A stretch of 64,000 bases of DNA from Saccharopolyspora rhizosphaerae (lineage in GTDB: Bacteria > Actinomycetota > Actinomycetes > Mycobacteriales > Pseudonocardiaceae). Each line of letters opens with the position of its first letter. Positions within the stretch are counted from its first letter, which is position 1. Of the stretch, positions 160 through 13,797 are shown piece by piece. The notes under the pieces are model-generated. The model did not search any database and was not told where the DNA came from. It saw only the letters and a list, made by a program, of their open reading frames with translations. A program made the position numbers and the translations under genes. The DNA lies in assembly GCF_003931915.1 (NCBI RefSeq), contig NZ_RSAA01000009.1, positions 1-64,000 on the forward strand, in the 5' to 3' direction.

Positions 160-431
160 TGCTCAGAACCTCCCTGGAGATGTGAATGCAGTGCTAGAAG
201 AACCGTAGTGCGATCTCGCTCACTGCAACAGAGGTTTCGCTTTATTGGTTCAGACCAATCGGTCACATCGGACTTGATCAGCACTGCCACGTCCTAGGTC
301 CGACGTCGGACCCGGAGCGTTGTGCTGCGCTGACGCTGGGTTCACCGGGTGCGATCCGATCGCCACTGTGGCACAACTCGCACGTGGGCCGCTCGTCGGG
401 GCTCGCAGCGCAGGCCGGTAGCGTCTGGACC

Positions 432-1178
432 GTGAACGACACGCCATCGCTGGCACCGCTGCTGGAACTCGACGGAGTCGCCGACGCGGTGGCCGCTGCG
501 CGCGCCGCCATCGACGAGGTGCACCGGCACCCGGCCAACCGGCGCGGCTGGCCGACCACCGCCGCCGAAGCCTCGGTGCGCGCGGCCCGCGCCTCGGCCG
601 CAGTCGCCGGTGGTGCCACCGAAATCCCGGAGTCCGGCGAGGTCAGCGACCCGCTGCTGGCCGGTTCGCTGCGCGTCGCCGAAGCCATGGGCACCTTGCT
701 GCCGACCTGGCAGCGCGCGCCCCGGCAGGCGCTGGCCCGGATGCACCTGCTCGCCGCCAGCGATCTCGTCGACGACCCCGAGCAGCTCGGCCGCCCGCAG
801 GCCGACCCGGTGATCTCCGAGCGTCTGGACCTGCTCAGCGAGATCGTCATCGAGCCGAAGGCGCACGGCGCCGGCCCGGTGCTGGCGGCCGTGGTGCACG
901 GCGAGCTGCTCGCGCTGACCCCGTTCGGCCAGGCCGACGGCGTCATCGCGCGTGCTGCCGCGAGGCTGGCCGTCATCGGCAGCGGACTGGACCCCAAGGG
1001 CCTGGTCGTGCCGGAGGTCGCCTACTTCCGCAGGCAGGAGGACTACACCGAGCGCGCCCTGGGCTTCGCCACCGGCGAGCCCGACGCGGTCGCCGCCTGG
1101 GTCGTCCACTGCTGCTCGGCGCTGGAGGCCGGTGCTCGCGAGGCGGCGTCGATCGCCGACGCCGTCCAGGAGGGATGA
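432..1178 (+). CDS. Conserved actinobacterial protein, Rv3662c-like
   Basis: A 248-residue soluble, alanine-rich, mostly helical protein without signal peptide or membrane segment. It matches by length and position the mycobacterial Rv3662c family, sometimes labelled oxidoreductase without biochemical proof. The GTG at 432 is preferred over one at 384 because a TANNNT hexamer (TAGCGT, 419-424) lies exactly 7 bases before it, the layout of a leaderless transcript, and there is no Shine-Dalgarno sequence. Its stop overlaps the start of the nucleoside hydrolase by 4 bases (ATGA), so the two are probably translationally coupled. I see no catalytic signature and assign no function. Confidence 0.75.
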   Translation: MNDTPSLAPLLELDGVADAVAAARAAIDEVHRHPANRRGWPTTAAEASVRAARASAAVAGGATEIPESGEVSDPLLAGSLRVAEAMGTLLPTWQRAPRQALARMHLLAASDLVDDPEQLGRPQADPVISERLDLLSEIVIEPKAHGAGPVLAAVVHGELLALTPFGQADGVIARAAARLAVIGSGLDPKGLVVPEVAYFRRQEDYTERALGFATGEPDAVAAWVVHCCSALEAGAREAASIADAVQEG

Positions 1179-2147: not shown

Positions 2148-3059
2148 TCAGGACTCCAGGGCGCGCAGCGCGTCGCGGACTTGGCCGTCGGCCACCGCGA
2201 GGGCGGCCGCGGACCGTTCGACGTCGGCGCCGGAGAGCAGGTGGACCAGGGCCGTCTTGAGGTCGTCGCCCGCCGCGGTCAGCGCCTCGGCGCACGCGCT
2301 CTCGGAGGCACCGGTGGCCTCCTGCAGGATGTTGATCGTGCGTCCGCGCAGCTTGGCGTTGGTCGCCAGCATGCTGACCATGAAGTTCGAGTACACCCGC
2401 CCCAACTTGATCATCACGGTCGTGGAGAACGCGGTGAGCACGAGCTTCTGCGCGGTGCCGGCCTTCATCCGGGTCGACCCGCTGATCGGCTCGGGGCCGG
2501 TGTCGGCCGCGATGACCACGTCGGCCGGGACCTCACCCGGGTTCGGGTTCGAGGTCAGCAGCGCGGTGGTCGCGCCCACCTCCTTCGCCGCGGCCAGGGC
2601 CGAGAGCACGTAGGGCGTCCGGCCGGACGCGGCTAGGCCGAGCACGAAGTCCTTGTCCGATCCCTGCGCGCGGATCTCGCGAGCGCCGGCGTCCTCGTCG
2701 TCCTCGGCGTTCTCCACCGCCTGCTGGTAGGCCTCGGGACCGCCCGCCTGGTGGGCGATGAACCAGTCCGGAGGGGCGTTGAAGGTCGGGATCAGCTCGG
2801 CGGCGTCGAGCACGGCCAGCCGGCCCGAGGTGCCGGCGCCGACGTAGTGCACCCGGCCACCGGAACGCAGCGCGGTCACCGCGAGGTCCACGGCCTCCGC
2901 CAGCTCCGGCAGCACGCGGCCGACCGCTTCGGGCACCGTGCGGTCTTCGCGGTTGAGCAGCTGCAGGATGTCCAGCGTCGGCAGCAGGTCGATGTCGCGG
3001 GTGTGGGGGTTGGTCTGCTCGGTCGGTGATGCGACGCGGATCGCGTGATCCCGGCTCAA
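2148..3059 (-). CDS. murQ: N-acetylmuramic acid 6-phosphate etherase
   Basis: 303 residues. MurQ cleaves the D-lactyl ether of MurNAc-6-phosphate, giving GlcNAc-6-phosphate and D-lactate in the cytoplasm. It is a SIS-domain protein; the sugar-phosphate loop is visible as GAGTSGRLAVLDAAELIPTF and the second half carries PISGSTRMKAGTAQK, both hallmarks of the family. The start is a TTG at 3059 with AGGAGG six bases upstream. It lies 48 bp downstream of the RpiR-type regulator on the same strand, forming a murR-murQ pair. No MurNAc kinase or PTS MurP is seen in the window, so the source of MurNAc-6-phosphate is not explained locally. Confidence 0.95.
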   Translation of the reverse strand: MSRDHAIRVASPTEQTNPHTRDIDLLPTLDILQLLNREDRTVPEAVGRVLPELAEAVDLAVTALRSGGRVHYVGAGTSGRLAVLDAAELIPTFNAPPDWFIAHQAGGPEAYQQAVENAEDDEDAGAREIRAQGSDKDFVLGLAASGRTPYVLSALAAAKEVGATTALLTSNPNPGEVPADVVIAADTGPEPISGSTRMKAGTAQKLVLTAFSTTVMIKLGRVYSNFMVSMLATNAKLRGRTINILQEATGASESACAEALTAAGDDLKTALVHLLSGADVERSAAALAVADGQVRDALRALES

Positions 3060-3107
3060 ATCATGCCTCCTGATTCGGTTGTTCGAGGCCGGCCTGGAGA
3101 GCGCGCA

Positions 3108-4028
3108 TCACGCCTCTTTGTGCCGGCGCCGATCGGGGCGACTGCCGAGGCGATGTCCGGAGACCGCCTCGCGCGTCGCTTCCAGCGCCGTTCTGGTCTG
3201 CTCCAGGTGCCGCTGCGCGACACCGATGAACAAGCAGTCGATCACGGTCAGCTGTCCGATCCGGCTGGCCATGGCGCCGGACCGGTAGGTCGTTTCGCGG
3301 ACCGCGGTGGTCAGCACGTGGTCGGTGATCTCGGTGATCGGCGAGCGCGCGAAGTTGGTGATCGCGCCCGTCGTGGCGCCGTGCCGCTTGGCCTCGCGCA
3401 GCGCCTCGACGGTCTCGGTGGTGGCGCCGGTGTGCGAGATGCCGATCGCGACGTCGCCGGGTTGCAGCACGGCGGCGGAGGTCAGCGCGTTGTGGGTGTC
3501 CGACCAGGCGAAGCTGACCAGCCCGATGCGGTGCAGCTTCTGCTGCAGGTCCAGGGCGACGAAGGCGCTGGCGCCGACCCCGTAGACGTCGATGCGCCGG
3601 GCGCCGGACACGGCGTCCACCAGCGCGTTCAGCGAAGTCGGGTCGAGCTGGCCGGCGGTTTCCTCGACGGCCTTGGAATCCGCGTAACCGACCTTGGAGA
3701 TGATCTGCCCGATGCTGTCGTCCGGGCGGATGTCACCGCCCAGCTCCCGGTCGCGGGTGGACGTGCGCGCGGTGTCGGCGGCCAGGGCGATGCGCAGGTC
3801 GGGGTACCCGCCGACGCCGATGGCCTTGCAGAACCGGGTCACGGTCGTCTCGCTGGTCCCGGCGGCCTCGGCGACTTCGGTGATGCTGCGGCGCGAGATC
3901 GAGGCCGGGTCGGCGAGCACGATGTTGGCCACGCGCTGCTCGGCCCGAGCGAGTCCGGGCAGCAGCGAGCGAATCTTCACGAGGGGGCTTCCCTCGCTCG
4001 ATTCAGTGGAGATCTCTGAAGTGGCCAT
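3108..4028 (-). CDS. murR: RpiR/MurR family transcriptional regulator
   Basis: 306 residues: an N-terminal RpiR helix-turn-helix (about 15-90, with the recognition region GTSETTVTRFCKAIG) and a C-terminal SIS domain (about 130-270, YGVGASAFVALDLQQKL and ISHTGATTETVEALREA) that senses a phosphosugar. In other bacteria MurR controls murQ and cell-wall sugar uptake and responds to MurNAc-6-phosphate; that role is inferred from the adjacent murQ. No Shine-Dalgarno precedes the ATG, but TAAGTT sits 6 bases upstream on the coding strand, consistent with leaderless expression. It is divergent from the NCS1 transporter and may regulate it. Confidence 0.85.
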   Translation of the reverse strand: MATSEISTESSEGSPLVKIRSLLPGLARAEQRVANIVLADPASISRRSITEVAEAAGTSETTVTRFCKAIGVGGYPDLRIALAADTARTSTRDRELGGDIRPDDSIGQIISKVGYADSKAVEETAGQLDPTSLNALVDAVSGARRIDVYGVGASAFVALDLQQKLHRIGLVSFAWSDTHNALTSAAVLQPGDVAIGISHTGATTETVEALREAKRHGATTGAITNFARSPITEITDHVLTTAVRETTYRSGAMASRIGQLTVIDCLFIGVAQRHLEQTRTALEATREAVSGHRLGSRPDRRRHKEA

Positions 4029-4031
4029 GTG

Positions 4032-4053
4032 GGAAACTTACTAACTGGTTCTC
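4032..4053. promoter_or_regulatory. murR leaderless -10 and candidate operator
   Basis: The 269-bp divergent gap between murR and the NCS1 transporter contains, next to murR, the -10 hexamer TAAGTT (complement of 4035-4040). An imperfect inverted pair overlaps it: GGAAAC at 4032-4037 and GTTCTC at 4048-4053. Overlap with the promoter would suit autoregulation. A loosely similar GGAAC...TTACT arrangement lies upstream of nagZ near 10750-10770. Similarity is modest, so the operator part is tentative. Confidence 0.35.
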
Positions 4054-4297
4054 GTGCAGGTCAACACATCTCTTCAAGGTCCGTCGGGTAGACGGGTCGT
4101 GCCTGTGTCCAGGTTGCACGACTCGTCGGATGTTCGGTGGGGACCAACGACCCGAACGTCGAGATCGACATCTACACCTCCTCGGCGCGTGCCCGCCGCG
4201 CGACGCCGTCATCTGGCTGGAACGCGCCTCGCAACTGCCCGAAACATCTCGCGCGGACACTGCCGGACGCACGCGCGTTCGACAGAGGAGGGACGGG

Positions 4298-5920
4298 ATG
4301 GTCGTCGACCCACCGCGCGAGGGCACTTCGCGCGACCAAGCCGTGCGGGAAACTCTGGAGGACTACACCCTGCGGTTCGCCCCGCGCAGCTACCGCCGTT
4401 GGAAACCCGGCGTGGTGGCCACGACCGCGCTGGGCGGCATCGCCTACCTCGCCGACTTCTCCATCGGTGCCGGCATCGGCCTGAGCTACGGCACGGTCAA
4501 CGCCCTGCTGGGGATCCTGCTCGCGGCGGTGATCATCTTCGCGACCGGTGCGCCGCTGGCCTACTACGGCGCCCGCTACAACATCGACCTCGACCTGATC
4601 ACGCGCGGCGCCGGGTTCGGCTACTACGGCTCGGTGCTGACCAGCGTCATCTTCGGCAGCTTCACGTTCATCTTCTTCGCCACCGAGGGCGCGATCATGG
4701 CGCAGGGCCTGCACGTCGGGTTCGGGGTGCCGCTGTGGCTGGGATACCTGATCACGACGCTGGTGGTGGTCCCGCTCGTCGTCCACGGCATGAAGACGCT
4801 CAGCGCGCTGCAGGTGTGGACGACCCCGCTGTGGCTGCTGCTCATGGTCGGCCCGATCGGCTACCTGGTGGTCGTCGACCCGGTCTCGGTGAGCCGCTGG
4901 CTGGCCTTCACCGGCGAGGCGGGCGGGGGCGTCAGCGCCGCATCGGTGGTGCTCGGCGCGGGCGTGGCGCTGTCCCTGATGGCGCAGATCGGCGAGCAGA
5001 TCGACTACCTGCGGTTCATGCCGCCGCGCACGGCGGCCAACAAGCGCTCGTGGTGGCTGTCGACGCTGGTGGCAGGCCCGGGCTGGGTCGTGTTCGGCGC
5101 GGTCAAGCAGGCCACCGGGGCGTTCCTCGCGTTCTTCATCATGGGCGCGGCCGGAGCCGCGGCGACCGAACCGGTGCAGCAGTTCACGGGCATCTACGAG
5201 CTGTTCGCGCCCTGGTGGCTCGCGGTCCCGCTCGCCGTGGTGCTGGTGGTGCTCAGCCAGGTCAAGATCAACGTCACCAACGCCTACTCCGGCTCGCTGA
5301 CCTGGACGAACTCGTTCACGCGGGTCACCAAGCGCTACCCGGGCCGGATCACTTTCGTGCTGGCCAACCTCGCGGTCGCGCTCGTGCTGATGGAGGCGAA
5401 CATGTTCGCCTTCCTCAACTCCGTGCTGAGCTTCTACGCCAACTGCGCGATCGCCTGGGTGTGCACGGTGGCCGCCGACATCGTGATCAACAAGTTCGTG
5501 CTGCGGCGGTCGCCGGTGGAGCCCGAGTTCCGCCGCGGCATGCTGCACGCGGTGAACCCGGTGGGCGTGACGGCCTTCCTGGCCTCGGCGATCCTCTCGA
5601 TCGCGATGTACTTCGGAACCTTCGGCGACGCCGTCCAGCCCTTCTCACCGATCGCGGCCGTGCTCATCGCGGTGGTCCTGACGCCGGTGATGGCCGTCGT
5701 GACCCGCGGCCGGTACTACCTGCGCCGCACCGACGACGGCATCGCCGAGCCCCGCTTCGACGCCGACGGCACCCCGGCCGCGACCGCGCACACCTGCGAC
5801 TACTGCCTGCAGGACTTCGAGCGGCCGGACGTGCTGGCCAGCGCCGAACCGGGGAAGGTCATCTGCTCGCTGTGCGTGAGCACCGACCGGACCGGGGAGC
5901 TGGTGCTCCCGGCCACGTAG
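4298..5920 (+). CDS. NCS1-family permease with C-terminal double-CxxC tail
   Basis: 540 residues with about 12 hydrophobic segments. The N-terminal region (LEDYTLRFAPRSYRRW, GGIAYLADFSIGAGIGLSYG) and the QIGEQIDYLRFMPP stretch match nucleobase:cation symporter-1 proteins, which import purines, pyrimidines, allantoin or hydantoins. Many starts are open upstream; ATG 4298 is chosen for its AGGAGG-like site (4285-4293). After the last membrane segment a cytosolic tail of about 60 residues carries CDYC (500-503) and CSLC (523-526), a likely small zinc-binding module unusual for this family. It occupies the place where Bacillus mur clusters carry the PTS transporter MurP; substrate is unknown. It ends 9 bp from the convergent amiE-like gene. 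Confidence 0.85.
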   Translation: MVVDPPREGTSRDQAVRETLEDYTLRFAPRSYRRWKPGVVATTALGGIAYLADFSIGAGIGLSYGTVNALLGILLAAVIIFATGAPLAYYGARYNIDLDLITRGAGFGYYGSVLTSVIFGSFTFIFFATEGAIMAQGLHVGFGVPLWLGYLITTLVVVPLVVHGMKTLSALQVWTTPLWLLLMVGPIGYLVVVDPVSVSRWLAFTGEAGGGVSAASVVLGAGVALSLMAQIGEQIDYLRFMPPRTAANKRSWWLSTLVAGPGWVVFGAVKQATGAFLAFFIMGAAGAAATEPVQQFTGIYELFAPWWLAVPLAVVLVVLSQVKINVTNAYSGSLTWTNSFTRVTKRYPGRITFVLANLAVALVLMEANMFAFLNSVLSFYANCAIAWVCTVAADIVINKFVLRRSPVEPEFRRGMLHAVNPVGVTAFLASAILSIAMYFGTFGDAVQPFSPIAAVLIAVVLTPVMAVVTRGRYYLRRTDDGIAEPRFDADGTPAATAHTCDYCLQDFERPDVLASAEPGKVICSLCVSTDRTGELVLPAT

Positions 5921-5929
5921 ATGAGGTGC

Positions 5930-7666
5930 TCACCGCGGGGCCGGGGCCCACCCCTGCAGCTGCAGCCGGCCGGAGTCGCGCTCGGAGTCCAGCAGCGTGC
6001 GGTGGTCGTCGCTGGCCTTGAGGCCGTCGACGTTCACGCCCCGGCCCTCGTACTGGTCGTCGACGGCGTACCGCCAGCGCAGCTGGACCCTGTCGCCCGG
6101 CCCGGACGGCACCTGGCCGCTGACCTTCCACCAGGACCGGTGCCCGTACCCCGCCAGCGCCTGCTGCGGTCCCTCCGGCGCGCCGGGGCCGGACGCCGTC
6201 AGCGGCACCGGGCGCCAGTTGACCCCGTCGGTGCTGGACTCGACGACGAGCGAGTCGGCGCCGTCGGCGTCCCGCTGGGTGTCCACGAACGCGTTGAAGG
6301 ACACCTCCAGCGGCCCCTCGGGCGGACCCAGCGGCTCGGTGGTCAGCGTCGCGTTCCGGGGTGCGTGGAACGAGTCCCGTCCCTGGCGCGGGAACACCGC
6401 CAGGGCGCGGGCCAGGCCCTGCGCGAGCTCCTGGCGGGCGCGGTTGTTGGACCCCCACTCCCGCGACGGGTGCACCCGGTTGGTCAGCAGCACCGCCAGC
6501 GACCGCGAGGCCGGGTCGATGACCAGCGACGTCCCGGTGTAGCCGGTGTGCCCGGCGGTGCGCGGAGCGCTGAGCCCGGCCATGTACCAGCGCTGGTCGA
6601 GCTCGAAGCCGAGACCGTGCGCGTTGCCCGGGAACTCGGTGTTGTAGTCGGTGAGCATCTTCTCGACGGCGCGCTCGGACAGGATGCGGGTGCCGCCGTA
6701 GGCGCCACCGTTGAGCAGCGCTTGGCCGAGCGTCGCGAGGTCGTCGGCGGTGGAGAACACCCCGGCCTGACCGGCGACGCCGCCCAGCGCCCAGGCGTTC
6801 TCGTCGTGCACCTGGCCGCGCACCATGCCGCGCGGCGGGTCGGACTGGAACTCGGTCGCCGCGATGCGGTGCAGCTTCGACGCCGGCGGGTTGTAGCCGG
6901 TGTCGGTCATGCCGAGCGGTTCGGTGATCCACTGCTGGACCACCTGGTCCAGCGGGTGCCCGGTGACCCGCTCGACCAGCAGGCCGAGGGTGATCATGTT
7001 CGGGTCGGAGTACTCGTAGTGCGTGCCCGGCGGGTGCTCGGGGGTCAGCGCCATGATCGACGGAACGCGCTGCTCCGGCGGCAGCTTCCACAGCTTGACC
7101 TCGGCCTGCAGCCCGGAGGTGTGGGTGAGCAGCTGCTCGACGGTGATGTCCTGCTTCCCGTTGGTGCCGAATTCGGGCAGGTGCTCGGCGACCGGGTCGT
7201 CCAGCGAGATCGTGCCGTCGTCGACGAGCTGCAGCGCGGTGATCGAGGTGAACAGCTTGCTGATCGAGGCGACGTCGAAGATCGTGTCGGTCCGCATCGG
7301 CTCCCGGTCCTGCGGGGGCAGCTCGGTGCCCTGGCCGTCGGCGTAGCGCAGCTGCTCACCGGCAGCGGTGCGGCTGACGACCACGCCGTCGTGCGCGAGC
7401 AGACCCACGGCCCCGGCGTACATCGGGTGCTCCAGGTCCGGGGTCTTCTCGGTCCACGCCGCCAGCTTCCGCCAGGCGTCGTCGATCGGTTCCGGGTCGA
7501 GCCCGATCCCGGAGGGCGTGCCGTCCTGCAGCAGCGTCTCGGCGGGAGCGAACCCGTCCTGCGGGCGGTCGAAGTGGCCCGCAGCGCGTCCCGTGGCCGC
7601 TGCGGACGACCCGGTCAGCGCGGTGAGCGACAGCAGCGCCACGGCCGCCAGAACGGTCTTGCCCAT
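5930..7666 (-). CDS. Secreted serine hydrolase, class C beta-lactamase fold, AmiE-like
   Basis: 578 residues. A Sec signal peptide (about 1-24) precedes a penicillin-binding-like catalytic domain with SISK (S134-K137), YSD (219-221) in the usual YxN position and HTG (373-375). Third gene of a nagZ-namZ operon, 9 bp after namZ. In Bacillus subtilis the equivalent neighbour is AmiE (YbbE), a MurNAc-L-alanine amidase of the same fold that strips peptides from muropeptides; this is the best functional guess. It is about 140 residues longer than AmiE: residues from about 405 onward form a beta-rich domain (SSTDGVNWRPVPL, WWKVSGQVP, GRGVNVDGLKASD) resembling a jelly-roll carbohydrate- or wall-binding module. 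An esterase or D-aminopeptidase role cannot be excluded. Confidence 0.75.
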   Translation of the reverse strand: MGKTVLAAVALLSLTALTGSSAAATGRAAGHFDRPQDGFAPAETLLQDGTPSGIGLDPEPIDDAWRKLAAWTEKTPDLEHPMYAGAVGLLAHDGVVVSRTAAGEQLRYADGQGTELPPQDREPMRTDTIFDVASISKLFTSITALQLVDDGTISLDDPVAEHLPEFGTNGKQDITVEQLLTHTSGLQAEVKLWKLPPEQRVPSIMALTPEHPPGTHYEYSDPNMITLGLLVERVTGHPLDQVVQQWITEPLGMTDTGYNPPASKLHRIAATEFQSDPPRGMVRGQVHDENAWALGGVAGQAGVFSTADDLATLGQALLNGGAYGGTRILSERAVEKMLTDYNTEFPGNAHGLGFELDQRWYMAGLSAPRTAGHTGYTGTSLVIDPASRSLAVLLTNRVHPSREWGSNNRARQELAQGLARALAVFPRQGRDSFHAPRNATLTTEPLGPPEGPLEVSFNAFVDTQRDADGADSLVVESSTDGVNWRPVPLTASGPGAPEGPQQALAGYGHRSWWKVSGQVPSGPGDRVQLRWRYAVDDQYEGRGVNVDGLKASDDHRTLLDSERDSGRLQLQGWAPAPR

Positions 7667-7675
7667 GAGCCCCCC

Positions 7676-8935
7676 TCAGCGGTACAGCAGGTACGGATCG
7701 CGTTGCCGGCGGAAGTCGACGACGTCCTGCCGCCAGGATTCGGTGATCTCGCCGACGTCGGCACCTGCGTCCACCATGCCGCGCAGCTCGTCGGAGCCGG
7801 ACAGCTTGTCGACCATCCCATCGTCGCGCCAGCCGAACAGCTGAGGGTAGAGCCGCCGGGCTGTGACCAACATCGCAACCGCGACCTGGATCGGGTCGAG
7901 ATCACCCGTGCGGTGGAGCTGCACGCCACCGCAGGTCTGCTGGGCGTGCTTGGAGAAGGTCGGGACGAAGTAGGTCTCGCGGAACCGGACGCCCTCCAGC
8001 GAGAGCCCGTTGAGCTCCTCGGCCCACTTCCAGTCCACGCCGGGAGCCCCGATGATCTCGAACGGTCGGGTCGTGCCGCGCCCCTCGGACCAGGTGGTGC
8101 CTTCGAACAGTCCCGTGCCCGGGTACACCGCGGCCGTGTCGGGGGTGGGCATGTTGGGGCTGGGCGGAACCCACGGCAGACCGGTGTCGGCGGTGCGCCC
8201 CTCCCAGTCCTCCACCCGGATGACGGTGAGCTCGGGCAGCGGGGCGGGCAGGTGCACGCGGTCGAACATCCGGGCCAGCTCGCCCACGGTCATGCCGTGC
8301 TGCTGCACGATCGGCAGCTCGCCGACGCCGGAGGCGAACCGCGGGTCCAGCGTCGGCCCGGAGACCAGCGGCCCCACCGGGTTGGGCCGGTCCAGCACCA
8401 CGAACCCCAGGCCGAGCTGCTGCGCGGCCTGCATGGCCTTGTACATCGTCCAGATGTAGGTGTAGAAGCGCGCGCCGACGTCGGCGATGTCGAAGACGAC
8501 CTGCTCGACGCCGGCCTTGCGGAACAGCTCGGCGAGCTTGCCCTCGTCGACGCCGTAGGCGTCGTAGACCGGCACGCCGGTGCGCGGGTCGCGGTAGTCG
8601 CCCTCGGAACCGCCTGCCTGCGACGTACCCCGGAACCCGTGCTCGGGGCCGAAGACCGCCGCGATGTCCAGCCCGCCGCGCGCGTGCATCACGTCCACCA
8701 GGTGGTCGAGGCTGGAGAGCACGCCGGTCGGGTTGGTGACGATGCCGAGCCTGCGCCCGGCGAGGTCGGAGAAGCCCCGCCCGGCCAGCACGTCCGCGCC
8801 GGTGCGCACCTTCCCGGGCGCGAGCTGCGCCGGCTTGGCCGCGCAGGCCGCGCTGGAAGCCACGCCGACCGCCGAGGCCGTCAGCGCCGAGGCGGTCAGG
8901 AAGCGCCGCCTGCCCATTCCGCTCATGTGGTTCAC
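7676..8935 (-). CDS. namZ: Exo-beta-N-acetylmuramidase, NamZ/DUF1343 family
   Basis: 419 residues. A twin-arginine signal (GRRRFLTASALTASAVG) is followed by the DUF1343 domain: RRLGIVTNPTGV, VFGPEHGFRGTSQAGGS, VDVMHARGG and FDIADVGARFYTYIW are family landmarks. Bacillus NamZ (YbbC) releases MurNAc from the non-reducing end of muropeptides outside the cell. The assigned GTG start overlaps the nagZ stop by 4 bases; in-frame ATG codons at 8926 and 8917 are alternatives nearer the arginine motif. The alternating nagZ/namZ/amiE order implies sequential stripping of GlcNAc, MurNAc and peptide from wall fragments. Confidence 0.88.
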   Translation of the reverse strand: MNHMSGMGRRRFLTASALTASAVGVASSAACAAKPAQLAPGKVRTGADVLAGRGFSDLAGRRLGIVTNPTGVLSSLDHLVDVMHARGGLDIAAVFGPEHGFRGTSQAGGSEGDYRDPRTGVPVYDAYGVDEGKLAELFRKAGVEQVVFDIADVGARFYTYIWTMYKAMQAAQQLGLGFVVLDRPNPVGPLVSGPTLDPRFASGVGELPIVQQHGMTVGELARMFDRVHLPAPLPELTVIRVEDWEGRTADTGLPWVPPSPNMPTPDTAAVYPGTGLFEGTTWSEGRGTTRPFEIIGAPGVDWKWAEELNGLSLEGVRFRETYFVPTFSKHAQQTCGGVQLHRTGDLDPIQVAVAMLVTARRLYPQLFGWRDDGMVDKLSGSDELRGMVDAGADVGEITESWRQDVVDFRRQRDPYLLYR

Positions 8936-10710
8936 CAGGTCAGTCCGAATCCGAAGGGGTACCTGTCGCTTCCAGGCCTACCAGGTTCGGGGACCGCGAC
9001 GGGCAGCTTCCCAGCAGGCGCGTTCTCGCCGAAGAGGACCTTGGCGACCGACTCCATGGCGACCGGCTTGTCCGAGTAGCTGGCGATCCAGGCCGGGACG
9101 TCGACGTAGGCCGCGTCGTAGGGGTCGCGGGTGGCCACGGCGACCACCGGCTTGCCGGTCTGCTGCAGGGCGCGCACCAGGTCGAGCTGACCGGCGTTGT
9201 CCTGGTTCCACGCGGCGCTGGTGAGCACCACGGCGACGTCGTGCGACTTCGCCTGCGCGACGGCCTGGTCGATCTGCTCCTGCGTCGGCTGCAGCCCGGT
9301 GGCCAGTGCCGAGCTCTGCGCGCCGCGCGCTCGCACCGAGTCCGACAGCGCCGCGGTGCCCTTCTCGGTCGCGCCGGTGACGAAGACCCGGCCCGGCGAC
9401 TTCAGCGGCAGCGCTGCGTCGTTGCGCAGCAACGTCGTGGTGCGGTCGGTGATCTGCTGGGCCTCGGCCCGGTGCTGCCGGTTGCCGACGACCGAGTCGA
9501 CAGCGGAGACGTCGACGAACGGGTTGGCCAGCACACCGCGGGACTCCTTGAGCTTGAGCACGCGCGACACGCTCTCGTCGATGCGCTGCTCGGTGAGCCG
9601 CCCGTCGCGGACCGCGGCGATCACGCCGTCGATGGCGACCTGCAGGTTCTGCGGCATCAACATCACGTCCGCGCCGGCCTGCAGCGCCAGGACCGGGATC
9701 TCGGCGTCGGGGTGCTGCTGGCGGACGCCCTCCATCTGCAGCGAGTCGGTGAACACCACGCCCTGGTAGCCGAGCTCCTGGCGCAGCATCCCGGTCAGCA
9801 CGTTCGGCGCCAGCGTCGCGGGCTCACCGGAGTCGTCGAGCTTGGGGACGACGATGTGCGCGCTCATCACCGAATCCACGTCGGCGGCGATGGCCTCCTT
9901 GAACGGGGGTGCGTCCAGCTGCTCCCACTGCTCGCGGTCGTGCTCGATGACGGGCAACGCGGTGTGGCTGTCGGTGTTGGTGTCGCCGTGGCCGGGGAAG
10001 TGCTTGACCGAGGCCGACACGCCCTCGCCCGCGGGCTGGGCGTCCTCGTACCCGCGCACCTGGGCGGCGGTGAACTCGGCGGCCAGTGCCGGGTCGGAGG
10101 CGAACGAACGCACGCCGATCACCGGGTTCGCGGGGTTGACGTTGACGTCACCGCTCGGCGCGAAGTTCATGTTCAGTCCCATGGCCCGCAGTTCGGTGCC
10201 GGTGATGGCCGCCGACCGCTCGGCGTCCTGCGGGTTGCGCCCGGCACCGAGCGCCATGTTGCCGGGCAGCTGGGTGGCCGGCTCGGTGATCCGCGTGACC
10301 TGCCCCTGCTCCTGGTCGGTGGAGATCAGCAGCGGTACCCGGGCCCCGGACCCGGTGGCGGCGCTTTGCAACCCGTTGGACAGCTCGGCGATCTGCTTCG
10401 GCTCGTAGAGGCTGTTCGACCAGGTGAAGTGGATGATCCCGCCGAGGTGGTACTTCTCCACGACCTGCGCCGGGGTGTCGACGCCGAACTCCTCCCGGTT
10501 CACGGGATCCGGCGTGTCGGCGGTGCGGCCGTAGGCGTAGGTGACGAACAGCTGCCCGACCTTCTCCTCGAGCGTCATCTCCCGCAGCAGTTCGTCCGCG
10601 CTCCGGGCGCGGGATTCCCAGGCGCTTCCGGTGGTGGTCAGCGCGGTGGCGCCGACGGCCAGTGCGCTCAACGCGATGAAGGCACGTCGAGTTCGGGTCC
10701 GCAATGCCAC
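8932..10710 (-). CDS. nagZ: Exported beta-N-acetylglucosaminidase, GH3 family
   Basis: 592 residues from the GTG at 10710, chosen because GGGAGG lies 5 bases upstream and the protein then begins directly with its signal (RTRTRRAFIALSALAVG, possibly twin-arginine). An ATG ten codons earlier is open. The GH3 N-terminal barrel contains KHFPGHGDT followed by DSH (about 236-249), the His-Asp acid/base loop diagnostic of NagZ, and FTDSLQM (nucleophile Asp about 322). A C-terminal GH3 second domain is present, as in the secreted Bacillus enzyme. It should remove terminal GlcNAc from muropeptides outside the cell. First gene of nagZ-namZ-amiE; the promoter should lie in 10711-10900. Confidence 0.92.
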   Translation of the reverse strand: MALRTRTRRAFIALSALAVGATALTTTGSAWESRARSADELLREMTLEEKVGQLFVTYAYGRTADTPDPVNREEFGVDTPAQVVEKYHLGGIIHFTWSNSLYEPKQIAELSNGLQSAATGSGARVPLLISTDQEQGQVTRITEPATQLPGNMALGAGRNPQDAERSAAITGTELRAMGLNMNFAPSGDVNVNPANPVIGVRSFASDPALAAEFTAAQVRGYEDAQPAGEGVSASVKHFPGHGDTNTDSHTALPVIEHDREQWEQLDAPPFKEAIAADVDSVMSAHIVVPKLDDSGEPATLAPNVLTGMLRQELGYQGVVFTDSLQMEGVRQQHPDAEIPVLALQAGADVMLMPQNLQVAIDGVIAAVRDGRLTEQRIDESVSRVLKLKESRGVLANPFVDVSAVDSVVGNRQHRAEAQQITDRTTTLLRNDAALPLKSPGRVFVTGATEKGTAALSDSVRARGAQSSALATGLQPTQEQIDQAVAQAKSHDVAVVLTSAAWNQDNAGQLDLVRALQQTGKPVVAVATRDPYDAAYVDVPAWIASYSDKPVAMESVAKVLFGENAPAGKLPVAVPEPGRPGSDRYPFGFGLTW

Positions 10711-10910
10711 GTCGGCCTCCCACCGAGAACTGTTCACCATGAACGTGTTGGAACTAGCAAATTACTCACCGTCACTGTGGAGGTCAACGTTCATGATCGG
10801 TGCGTGCGGCCGCGTTTTCCAAGGTGGTTGCGCAGGAAGGGTGATGCGCTGCTGTTCCCCCGCGCACCAGCGGAAGGGAGGGTTCCGGGACTGCACCGGG
10901 GTTCGCGCGC

Positions 10911-10941
10911 AAAAGAGCGGCGCCCGTTGGTCGGGCGCCGC
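10911..10941 (-). terminator. Intrinsic terminator of the Ms1-like RNA
   Basis: Perfect 10-bp stem GCGGCGCCCG/CGGGCGCCGC (10917-10926 with 10932-10941) with a 5-base loop. On the minus strand it is followed by TCTTTTGC, a genuine U-rich tail rare in this GC-rich window, which sets the direction. Confidence 0.8.
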
Positions 10942-11145
10942 CCCCTCGCGCGAGCACTTGGGTTACCAAGCGTGCTGTTCGTCGTAACTTTCGGGCTAGG
11001 CGTCCGGCGTCCCGGTACGCAACCCTGTGCACGACAGCCTTATCTGCGGCGACGCGTGGGTTCTCCAAGTCTCGCGCGCGGAGCCTGAGTCGGGGTGGAC
11101 GCTACTTCTCCTCCGTAACGTCCCTGGCCAACCAGGGTCCGCACC
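10911..11145 (-). ncRNA. Candidate Ms1/MTS2823/scr3559-like RNA
   Basis: This non-coding gap of over 480 bp follows the stop of the SerB-like HAD gene on the same strand. In M. tuberculosis the Rv3661 homologue is followed, on the same strand, by MTS2823 (Ms1 in M. smegmatis), a very abundant RNA that binds core RNA polymerase, and Streptomyces has scr3559 in the related region. Here a promoter (-35 TTGCAG, 17-bp spacer, -10 TACAAA) sits at 11178-11150. About 200 bases later a perfect 10-bp GC hairpin plus TCTTTT forms a terminator at 10941-10911. Between them are a 9-bp hairpin exposing GGAGGAGAA (11097-11123), a CCCTGG/CCAGGG stem and a long CTTGG/CCAAG stem. Identity is inferred from position and structure, not primary sequence. 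Confidence 0.55.
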
Positions 11146-11149
11146 TCCC

Positions 11150-11178
11150 TTTGTAGACCGTGATGCCCCTCACTGCAA
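11150..11178 (-). promoter_or_regulatory. Promoter of the Ms1-like RNA
   Basis: On the minus strand, TTGCAG (11178-11173) and TACAAA (11155-11150) are separated by exactly 17 bases. Transcription would start near 11146-11143. This is a plausible housekeeping sigma promoter independent of the upstream HAD gene. Confidence 0.5.
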
Positions 11179-11223
11179 GGGTTCTTCAGGGCGAACCACA
11201 GCCCTGGTCACCAGCGGATTCGT

Positions 11224-12051
11224 TCACCGACGGCGACGCCATGCGCGGAGGCCCCACCAGGTGGCGCCGGCGGCGGCCACCGCCCCGATCCCGACGCCCG
11301 CGGCGGTGACGGCCGCGCGTGACGGGGTGGGGATCCGGGCGCGCAGCGAGACAGGGTGCTCGAAGGTCAGCGTCGGCCAGCCGCGCTGCACCGCTTCCTT
11401 GCGCAGCCCGCGGTCCGGGTTGATGACGGTGGGGTGGCCGACGGCTTCGAGCAGCGGCATGTCGCTCAGCGAGTCCGTGTAGGCGTACGACTCGCTGAGG
11501 TCGAAGTCGTGCTTCTCGGCCAGCTCCCGCGCGGCGACCGCCTTGTTCTCCCCGGAGCAGTAGAAGTCCACCTCACCGGTGTAGCGACCTTCGGAGACGA
11601 CCATGCGGGTCCCGAACCAGTGGTCGGCGCCGAGGAGCTTGGCGATGGGCGCGACGACTTCCTGCCCGGACGCCGACAGCACGACGATCTCGTGGCCCTG
11701 GTCCTGGTGGTCGGCGATGAGCTGGGTCGCCTCCTTGTAGACGAGCGGGTCGACGATGTCGTGGAGGGTTTCCTCGACGATGGCGTTGACCTGCTCGACG
11801 TCCCAGCCGGTGCACAGCGAGGTGATGTGGGCGCGCATCCGGTCCATCTGGTCCGCGTCGGCGCCGGCGAGCATGAAGACGAACTGCGCGTAGGCGCTCT
11901 TGAGCACCGCACGGCGGTTGATCAGCCCTTCCTGGAAGAACGGACGGCTGAAGGCGAGCGTGCTCGACTTGGCGATGATCGTCTTGTCCAGGTCGAAGAA
12001 CGCGGCCACGCGGCGTCCGGAAGCGGCGGCGGGGTTCGCGGGCTCAGTCAC
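11224..12051 (-). CDS. HAD-superfamily SerB-like phosphatase with C-terminal membrane anchor
   Basis: 275 residues. The HAD core is clear: FFDLDKTI (DxDxT nucleophile motif, about 16-23), VVLSASGQEV (motif II Ser), GENKAVAAREL (motif III Lys) and YTDSLSDMPLLE (motif IV). The cap resembles phosphoserine phosphatase/HAD-IB proteins. A final hydrophobic segment and WGLRAWRRRR suggest tail anchoring to the membrane. The Rv3661 family is usually annotated as a putative phosphatase or inhibition-of-division protein; the substrate is unknown. The GTG at 12051 is preferred because TATGCT lies 6 bases upstream (leaderless layout) and the protein then starts just before the catalytic motif; an ATG at 12084 is the alternative. 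Confidence 0.85.
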   Translation of the reverse strand: MTEPANPAAASGRRVAAFFDLDKTIIAKSSTLAFSRPFFQEGLINRRAVLKSAYAQFVFMLAGADADQMDRMRAHITSLCTGWDVEQVNAIVEETLHDIVDPLVYKEATQLIADHQDQGHEIVVLSASGQEVVAPIAKLLGADHWFGTRMVVSEGRYTGEVDFYCSGENKAVAARELAEKHDFDLSESYAYTDSLSDMPLLEAVGHPTVINPDRGLRKEAVQRGWPTLTFEHPVSLRARIPTPSRAAVTAAGVGIGAVAAAGATWWGLRAWRRRR

Positions 12052-12687
12052 GTCGACAGCATACGAGCCGTTCGCCTGCAGCATTCCCAGGCCGAAACCT
12101 CCCGGGTGTCCCCGGCCGGCGAGGCGGCCCGCACGATGACGTTCCGAACGAAAGCGATCTTTCACGCACCGTGCGGCGCCAGGAACGTTGCTCGCCGTCG
12201 GGATGGGTTTATTGCCACGAATGAATGGATTTCGCCAGGTATCGGGCACTGAGAGCAAAGGCGTTCCCTCAAATGGACGGGAGGCATTGCAGGGGATCTG
12301 CGAGATAGAGTGGTGGGAGTCCGGCATGACCGGACCAGTTCAGCTCGACCCCCCGGAGCTGAACTACGACGACCCCCGCCCCTCCCCCCTGGCGGGGGTC
12401 GTCCCGCATCCAGCTCCCACCTGCGCGAAGTGCGTGCCCGCGCAACAGTTTCCGGGCCAACGAGAAGTGAATTCGCCGGTTCCGGTGCGACCTCGCGTAA
12501 CCCTTTCGGGTCGGCGGAGTTGTCCACAGCGAAGGGGTTCCTCCACAGATTTCAGAAATCGCTTGGAGATCGGCCCGGCACCCGGTCATTTTGGACGACG
12601 AGCGGCCATTCGCGGCACAACGCTCCTTCTTCCGGCCGACCCGGAAGTGGTTTTTCCTCCGAAAAGTCCTGATCCCGGGGAGCCGAC
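12052..12687. other. 636-bp intergenic region between HAD phosphatase and ssd
   Basis: No convincing gene is seen. The right half contains two perfect hairpins in tandem: 9 bp (12338-12346 with 12356-12364) and 13 bp (12368-12380 with 12391-12403). An ATG at 12326 opens a reading frame through both hairpins, with no family resemblance. A perfect DnaA-type 9-mer TTGTCCACA lies at 12520-12528. The leader of the ssd-tad transcript is probably here. Confidence 0.5.
12338..12403. promoter_or_regulatory. Tandem perfect hairpins upstream of ssd
   Basis: Stem 1 is GTTCAGCTC/GAGCTGAAC with a 9-base loop; stem 2 is GACGACCCCCGCC/GGCGGGGGTCGTC with a C-rich 10-base loop; they are separated by 3 bases. 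No T tract follows, so an attenuator, processing site or binding site is as likely as a terminator. Confidence 0.45.
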
Positions 12688-13797
12688 ATGTTCGCCGCCC
12701 AACCGCCCACCCCCGAAAACGCGCACCCGTTGCTGGTGGTGCGCGATGCCGAACTCGCGGAGGAGGTCACCCGCCTCGCGGCCGCCTCGGGCAGCGAGCT
12801 CGAGCGCGCGCCACGGCTGCTGCCGACGGCGTGGCGCACGGCGCCGCTGGTGCTGCTCGACGAGCCCACCGCGGTGACCTGCGCCGACCGGGCCTTGCCA
12901 CGCAGGCGCGGTGTCGCGCTGGTGTGCCGGGCGACCGACGAGAGCGTGTGGCGGACGGCTTTCGGCATCGGGGCCGAGCGGGTGCTGACCCTGCCCGCGG
13001 ACGAACCCGAGCTGATCGAGCTGCTCGCCGACGCCGTCGACGCGCCGGTGGGTGAGGGGCGCGTGCTGGCGGTCCTCGGCGGCTGCGGAGGCGCGGGTGC
13101 GTCGGCGCTGGCCACTGCGGCATCCGTCGTCGCCGCCCGTTCCGGCGGCCGATCGCTGCTGGTCGATTGCGATCCGCTCGGTGGCGGCCTGGACCTCGCG
13201 CTCGGGTTGGAGCGCGAGGAGGGGCTGCGCTGGTCCGGGCTGTCGGTCGGCGCCGGTCGGCTCGGGTCCGCGACGTTGCGCCGAGCCCTGCCGAAGAAGC
13301 GCGTGGGGCCGGGTGAGCTCGCCGTCCTGGCCTGCGACCGCGACCGGCCTCCGAGCGGCCTGACGCCCGAAGGCGTGCGCGCGGTGCTCGGTGCGGGGCG
13401 CAGGTCGGGCGCGACGGTGGTTTGCGACCTGCCGCGCAGTCCGAGTTCGGCCGATGGCCCGGTCCTCGGTGACGCCGAGCTGGCGGTCGTCGTGGTGCCC
13501 GCAGAAGTGCGCGCCTGCGCGGCGGCGGCGCGGGTCGTCTCCGCGGTGACCGAACGTGCCGGATGCCCGGTCCGGCTGGTGGTGCGTGGCCCGTCCCCGG
13601 GCGGTCTGAGACCGCGTGACGTGGCGCGCGCTGCCGGTGCGCCGGTGCTCGCCACGATGCGACCACAGCCGCGCTTGGCCGCCGCCGTCGACCGCGGCGA
13701 CCTCGTCTCCGCGGCGCACCGGCGCAGTCCGCTCGCGACCGCGGCCGACGCCGCGCTCACCGAACTCGCCGCCGTGGAGTCGCCGACCAGGCGCTGA
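12688..13797 (+). CDS. ssd: Septum site-determining protein Ssd, MinD-like
   Basis: 369 residues. The N-terminal half (1-120) resembles a receiver-like/CpaE domain, followed by a MinD/ParA-type P-loop domain with a deviant Walker A, LGGCGGAGAS, which lacks the catalytic Lys, and a switch-like LLVDCDPLGGGLDLALG. This is characteristic of Ssd (Rv3660c), reported in mycobacteria to inhibit septation, and of CpaE/TadZ-type proteins that position Tad pilus machinery. It directly precedes the Tad genes, 83 bp before tadA, so a pilus-localising role is at least as plausible as a septum role. Start ATG has GGGGAG 5-8 bases upstream. Confidence 0.88.
   Translation: MFAAQPPTPENAHPLLVVRDAELAEEVTRLAAASGSELERAPRLLPTAWRTAPLVLLDEPTAVTCADRALPRRRGVALVCRATDESVWRTAFGIGAERVLTLPADEPELIELLADAVDAPVGEGRVLAVLGGCGGAGASALATAASVVAARSGGRSLLVDCDPLGGGLDLALGLEREEGLRWSGLSVGAGRLGSATLRRALPKKRVGPGELAVLACDRDRPPSGLTPEGVRAVLGAGRRSGATVVCDLPRSPSSADGPVLGDAELAVVVVPAEVRACAAAARVVSAVTERAGCPVRLVVRGPSPGGLRPRDVARAAGAPVLATMRPQPRLAAAVDRGDLVSAAHRRSPLATAADAALTELAAVESPTRR

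Follow-up and report, generated by a model that had tools for sequence, protein, structure and literature searches.

A probable Ms1 small RNA gene between the HAD hydrolase and GH3 genes of Saccharopolyspora rhizosphaerae

Genomic surroundings of the locus

Members of the genus Saccharopolyspora produce antibiotics and insecticides. The window considered here is a stretch of 64,000 nucleotides of S. rhizosphaerae DNA, which carries at positions 10911-11142 (-) what is very probably this organism's gene for Ms1, a small RNA already known from actinobacteria. Directly upstream on the same strand, in agreement with the initial annotation, lies a HAD-IB hydrolase gene of the Rv3661 type (11224-12051 (-); TIGR01490, 217.7 bits), the stop of which at 11224 is followed by the TTGCAG of the Ms1 promoter. 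The mechanically called open reading frame begins at 12327. As the alignments of many homologues do not begin until about residue 93, translation probably starts at the GTG at 12051, although six loci of the genus align from further upstream. On the far side of the HAD gene and on the opposite strand, a 6C RNA is encoded (12334-12407 (+); RF01066, 76.1 bits versus a cut-off of 47), leaving the HAD gene flanked by two RNAs, and is followed by a gene for the septum site-determining protein Ssd of the Rv3660c type (12688-13797 (+); TIGR03815, 330.5 bits, above cut-off). The placement of 6C with respect to Ms1 has been described, and relatives of both RNAs are reported to rise in stationary phase (PMC6582537).

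The downstream neighbour is a GH3 or beta-N-acetylhexosaminidase-like gene (8932-10740 (-)), which scores 298.4 bits with PF00933 and 180.4 bits with PRK05337, the latter being below its cut-off of 207. Between the Ms1 terminator and this gene, a promoter-like block begins with TTGACC (10782-10787 (-)). Full flanks are available for 16 genus loci; in an alignment of 15 of them (without L006), TTGACC is present in all 15 and is followed by GTAA[CT]TT in 14. Since the GH3 gene thus features a conserved promoter-like block of its own past the Ms1 terminator, the most plausible view of Ms1 is that of a stand-alone gene.

In mycobacteria, the downstream neighbour of Ms1 is an Rv3662c-like gene. Its counterpart, expected about 10 kb away, was indeed located by tblastn at 384-1178 (+), some 9.7 kb from Ms1: the genes downstream of Ms1 in all eight mycobacteria-type loci compared (L053-L056 and L058-L061; L057 was left out owing to its short flank) match this interval with 53-56% identity. 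The intervening region carries genes for a nucleoside hydrolase, MurQ, a MurR/RpiR-type regulator, a PBP4B-like protein, NamZ and the GH3 protein, the regulator and the PBP4B-like protein both scoring below their NCBIfam cut-offs. The peptidoglycan-recycling genes among them (MurQ, MurR/RpiR-type, PBP4B-like, NamZ and GH3) occupy 2148-10740 (-), directly after Ms1. Hence, cell-wall genes do lie in between as had been proposed, and the GH3 gene adjoins Ms1 in relatives as well. Within the genus, the HAD gene occurs in the flank of 18/18 loci and the GH3 gene in all 16 that have enough flank. The 30 loci from other genera consist of 28 canonical loci (L024 and L026-L052) and two second copies (L023 and L025); in the canonical ones, HAD is found in 27 and GH3 in 23 within 1.5 kb. 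The vicinity of GH3 to Ms1 is therefore the usual arrangement and not peculiar to the S. rhizosphaerae genome, and it also appears as a synteny phrase in the published tables (PMC9130861, Tables 2-3).

Assignment to the Ms1 family

The proposal that the RNA is an Ms1 homologue was borne out by covariance searches, though with a score below the family cut-off. In a cmscan of 10700-11260, the Ms1 family RF02566 matched with 60.2 bits and an E-value of 1.9e-14 (computed over 561 bases and 4227 Rfam families) along model positions 1-304 of 304, while the second-best Rfam family reached E 0.26. This match is unique in the 5.8-Mb genome (E 4.7e-14 in the genome-wide search), and RF02566 matched none of 14 control genomes. 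The gathering threshold of 162 bits, which the RNA of the window misses, is reached by none of 150 genomes of the taxonomic family and, in an order-wide search, by 9 of 121 genomes, all of them from genus g53 of family f8, whose strong Ms1 scores lead us to regard it as the Mycobacteriaceae. In our view, this threshold reflects curation tuned to mycobacteria and not a biological feature. Because of it, Ms1 is absent from a gathering scan of the window, and the gene would stay unannotated at the current Rfam cut-off.

For comparison among relatives, an alignment (A1) was assembled from 41 of 50 candidate canonical loci by removing nine near-identical ones. Excluded beforehand were L017, L018 and L050 (contig ends), the weak matches L019-L022 and L076, the second copies L023 and L025, and the loci of other families (L053-L066, L070 and L074). 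As the loci come from best matches only, those outside the genus being the best 30 of the RF02566 family search, A1 is biased towards sequences with a good fit to the Rfam model. Omission of the 12 genus rows from A1 yielded A2. The covariance model R1 was built from the 41 canonical family sequences and includes the sequence of the window itself; for this reason a second model, R2, was built as an independent test from the 29 sequences outside Saccharopolyspora (A2). R2 matches the window with 166.4 bits at an E-value of 1.6e-47, while its second-best match anywhere in the 64 kb has E 0.21.

Both Pseudonocardiaceae models extend to distant Ms1 RNAs. R2 recognizes mycobacteria-type Ms1 in all four loci tested (76.5-88.8 bits) and, weakly, locus L165 (26.7 bits), while R1 matches G324, the genome of L165, with 36.1 bits (E 6.8e-7) as its sole match there at E <= 0.001. 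We take L165 to be an scr3559-type locus of Streptomyces: it contains the exact complement of the 18-nt primer used for 5'RACE of scr3559, whereas the 23-nt 3'RACE primer is not found exactly and shows two differences by eye (primers from PMC9130861). L165 is strongly diverged in sequence (26.7-36.1 bits) but shares the ACCCACGCG and GGTAACCCGG strands. Through R2, the window is thereby linked to both experimentally studied kinds of core-binding Ms1, the mycobacterial RNA and Streptomyces scr3559, which sensitive BLAST is reported not to have connected (PMC9130861).

Occurrence among relatives

RF02566 finds Ms1 in 18/22 genomes of the genus and, with stricter filters, in 118/150 genomes of the family. 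R1 additionally matches 28 of 34 genomes in which the earlier searches had given no match or a weak one, and no sequence from these 34 had gone into the model; the identity of 12 family genomes in this search was deduced by elimination. With both models combined, Ms1 is present in 21/22 genus genomes (none in G003) and in 145/150 family genomes, the latter number comprising the 118 together with three genus members from the RF02566 search of the genus and 24 of the 29 other-genus genomes searched with R1, and counting two partial or weak matches in G133 (117-nt match) and G151 (30.4 bits). The five family genomes in which neither model found Ms1 are four of genus g42 and G154, which is 87% complete. 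Across the class, 118 genomes were searched with R1, which matched 36 and none of the other 82.

Several weak extra matches to the Rfam model, L019-L022 and L076 (25.9-29.9 bits), were dropped as probable chance hits, since R1 gave L076 19.5 bits and L019-L022 nothing at E <= 10; G127 shows a similar weak extra match to RF02566 (25.9 bits). Genus g42 (G062, G094, G116, G135 and G151) stands apart: four of its five genomes have no R1 match, G151 being the weakly matching one, and the best relatives of the HAD protein are merely 35-37% identical, so that the whole Ms1 locus may possibly have been lost in this genus.

Ms1 candidates have been reported in 824 actinobacterial species, and in Table 4 of the same study the Pseudonocardiaceae are represented by Saccharopolyspora and 26 other genera (PMC9130861). 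With Saccharopolyspora among the published Ms1 genera, the RNA is not new as a discovery, and the Ms1 of S. rhizosphaerae is possibly already contained in the species list of that study. Although well supported, it is an ordinary member of the published family, now available for Saccharopolyspora as a well-delimited gene with likely ends, structure and covariation.

Promoter, predicted transcript ends and terminator

The interval from 11178 to 10911 (-) reads from promoter through terminator, as had been claimed initially. The -35 element TTGCAG (11173-11178 (-)) and the -10 element TACAAA (11150-11155 (-)) are separated by the 17-bp spacer noted before, and both are kept in 17/17 aligned genus loci; TA[CG]AAA occurs in 28 of 35 rows of a wider alignment by our count. 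The first position of the Rfam model falls on 11142, seven bases past the -10 box, and was used to place the likely 5' end, while the U tract marks the likely 3' end at 10911, which gives an RNA of about 232 nt covered by the matches of both RF02566 and R2. At its end, 10911-10943 (-) is predicted to fold into an intrinsic terminator with a G+C-rich hairpin of 12 pairs (10943-10932 with 10926-10915), one of them G-U, followed by UUUU at 10914-10911, in line with the hairpin and U tail described initially. Within A1, this terminator helix (helix 9) shows changes on both sides in 10 of 11 pairs.

By consensus alone, these elements are unremarkable. A generic consensus scan of 9000-13000 called neither the Ms1 promoter nor the Ms1 terminator, hence consensus alone provides no evidence for them: TTGCAG agrees with TTGACA in 3/6 positions, TACAAA agrees with TATAAT in 4/6 and does not end in the T required by the scan, and the run after the 12-pair stem is just four T long. 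What raises promoter and terminator above chance is their conservation in the genus loci and the covariation of base pairs across the family. Judged by sequence and conservation, the gene thus has its own promoter and rho-independent terminator, which would yield the RNA of about 232 nt as a separate transcription unit.

The body between the two elements is G+C-rich and most of it is nearly invariant across the 17 aligned genus loci. It was described initially as about 230 bases of hairpin-rich non-coding sequence, and both attributes held: 10915-11180 folds at -138.4 kcal/mol (z -5.48; 0/200 shuffles as low), and close relatives differ by single-base indels, on account of which the body is read as non-coding and a coding region was ruled out.

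Secondary structure and covariation

The consensus structure is strongly supported by A1, in which 94.5% of cells are paired among the 41 relatives and 36 of 64 pairs show changes on both sides. None of 500 shuffles reached the observed covariation on any of five measures, and sliding the partners by 1-3 columns as a control lowered the paired cells to 34-43%. In the RNA of the window itself, 61 of the 62 consensus pairs with letters on both sides are standard pairs. The conserved architecture, with its 5' hairpin, long helix, central open region, apical hairpin and terminator, is present.

The 5' hairpin (11078-11142 (-)) consists of helices 1-3, with changes on both sides in 11 of 20 pairs, and carries GGCCAGGG as well as the loop stretch GGAGGAGAAG. 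It is followed by the left arm of the long central helix (11054-11077 (-); helices 4-5), which pairs with 10948-10971 and holds ACCCACGCG at its inner end. The left strand of the central open region (11026-11053 (-)), delimited by the R2 match and its mapping to the window, leads into the apical hairpin (10993-11025 (-); helices 7-8). Subsequently, the right strand of the open region and the right arm of the central helix, containing GCACGCUUGGUAACCC, extend over 10948-10992 (-), as defined by A1 and its covariation. Among the strands that vary least are ACCCACGCG and GCACGCUUGGUAACCC, both of which lie at the inner end of this long helix. Inside the open region, GUCGU (11035-11031) can pair with ACGAC (10985-10981 (-)), a helix that constitutes helix 8 of the R2 consensus with 93.1% of cells paired; because it hardly varies, the sequences lend it weak support. 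This pairing would shrink the open region relative to the R1 consensus.

Probable function and alternative interpretations

Ms1 has been reported to build up in stationary phase and to bind core RNA polymerase devoid of the primary sigma factor (PMC4191392, PMC9130861, PMC11077062). In Mycobacterium smegmatis, the bubble is important for binding (PMC4191392), and polymerase levels as well as outgrowth are affected by Ms1 (PMC11077062). For Saccharopolyspora erythraea, the main text of an RNA-seq paper contains neither '6S RNA' nor 'Rfam' (PMC4008361).

The RNA of the window resembles mycobacterial Ms1/MTS2823 (RF02566) in its end-to-end covariance match, with the mycobacterial start (model position 1) falling on 11142, in the HAD gene upstream, in having its own promoter and terminator, and in its fold, in which a 5' hairpin precedes a long helix that has an open region at its centre and an apical hairpin. 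It differs in length, about 232 nt compared with about 300 nt, since most of the mycobacterial insertion is absent (63 hidden model positions face 10 hidden window positions there in the RF02566 alignment), in the GH3 gene that takes the place of the Rv3662c-like gene downstream, and in its score below the RF02566 cut-off. On the other hand, the published length of S. coelicolor scr3559, about 230 nt, is close to the predicted one, and the HAD gene likewise appears as a published neighbour phrase of scr3559 (PMC9130861).

By analogy with these homologues, the RNA would be transcribed from its own promoter, fold into the 5' hairpin, the long hairpin with its central open region and the terminator hairpin, and most likely build up in stationary phase. 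Its open region would then allow binding of core RNA polymerase without the primary sigma factor, by which polymerase may be kept in reserve and its level tuned for outgrowth. With anatomy, conservation, covarying structure, synteny and Ms1 homology observed directly, we consider it highly probable that the Saccharopolyspora Ms1 gene is a stand-alone gene for an RNA of about 232 nt, most likely a stationary-phase binder of core polymerase. Counting against this reading are the RF02566 score below cut-off, the mostly absent mycobacterial insertion, the weak Streptomyces match and the 82 of 118 class-wide genomes that are negative with R1.

Bacillus possesses two 6S RNAs, 6S-1 and 6S-2. A comparable arrangement, in which the short Pseudonocardiaceae Ms1 of about 232 nt is a hybrid that also engages the sigma-holoenzyme and some members hold two RNAs, the canonical one beside HAD and a divergent one elsewhere, is a speculative extension to which we give little weight. 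That the RNA is instead a true 6S RNA, i.e. a binder of the sigma-holoenzyme and template for pRNA, appears very unlikely. The two families are alike in their long hairpins with a central, open-promoter-like bubble (PMC4191392), and scr3559 of S. coelicolor in stationary phase was enriched about 45-fold with HrdB, compared with about 1250-fold with RNAP (PMC11077062). Nevertheless, a genome-wide search with the 6S family RF00013 gave nothing at E <= 1, although it matched 6 of 14 control genomes, and a 6S identity was rejected for this lack of a match. Moreover, 10700-11260 matches Ms1 while none of the ten matches listed for it at E <= 10 is to 6S, and the verified Ms1 homologues bind another form of polymerase, namely core (PMC4191392, PMC11077062, PMC9130861).

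Another, still less credible interpretation regards the RNA as a cis-acting element, either the 3' UTR of the HAD gene or a leader for GH3 and the other cell-wall recycling genes downstream. Its location between HAD and GH3 in 16/16 genus loci with full flanks, and the common strand of all three in the window, would suit such a role. However, the RNA has a conserved promoter and a terminator of its own, a separate conserved TTGACC block precedes GH3 past the terminator in 15/15 loci, by which a GH3 leader was ruled out, GH3 was not found in the flank of mycobacteria-type loci where another gene lies downstream, and the divergent copies L023 and L025 occur away from both HAD and GH3. A degenerate or silent relic of Ms1, which the score far below the Rfam cut-off might suggest, is hardly conceivable for a sequence that retains promoter and terminator, forms standard pairs nearly throughout its consensus helices and is highly conserved in congeners. 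The reading as a stand-alone Ms1 gene is preferred.

Divergent second copies in relatives

Besides the canonical locus, 2 of the 150 family genomes contain a second strong RF02566 match away from HAD, both full-length and divergent: L023 (L023:1501-1748, on G139:C9) with 112.2 bits and L025 (L025:1501-1761, on G023:C46) with 95.6 bits. Each of these genomes also holds a canonical Ms1 (L077 and L078, respectively), scoring 152.9 and 166 bits with R1, while neither HAD nor GH3 occurs in the flanks of the second copies. An unrooted tree built from 42 Ms1 sequences places L023 and L025 together (96/86), and this group joins the mycobacteria-type sequences of f8 (100/99), apart from the Pseudonocardiaceae copies. 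A search of plasmids with a second copy returned one record, from Nocardia, over 41% of the query. Reports of a duplicated Ms1 were not encountered in the small part of the open-licence PMC literature covered, which is weak evidence of absence.

The copy in G139 is flanked by stretches that are conserved in G070, G101 and G155, the gap between them measuring 438-469 bp in G139 but 210-236 bp in these three congeners, a shortening by some 220-235 bp, and R1 finds no Ms1 in the matching gaps of these three genomes. The thioesterase-like gene beside this copy is 68-71% identical in the same three genomes, and as this neighbour is kept in congeners, contamination is unlikely for G139. For the second copy in G023, contamination is possible. 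Near L025 lie genes for a GvpU-like gas-vesicle accessory protein (L080:10537-11577) and a small heat-shock protein (L080:7942-8541), both of which score below their NCBIfam cut-offs.
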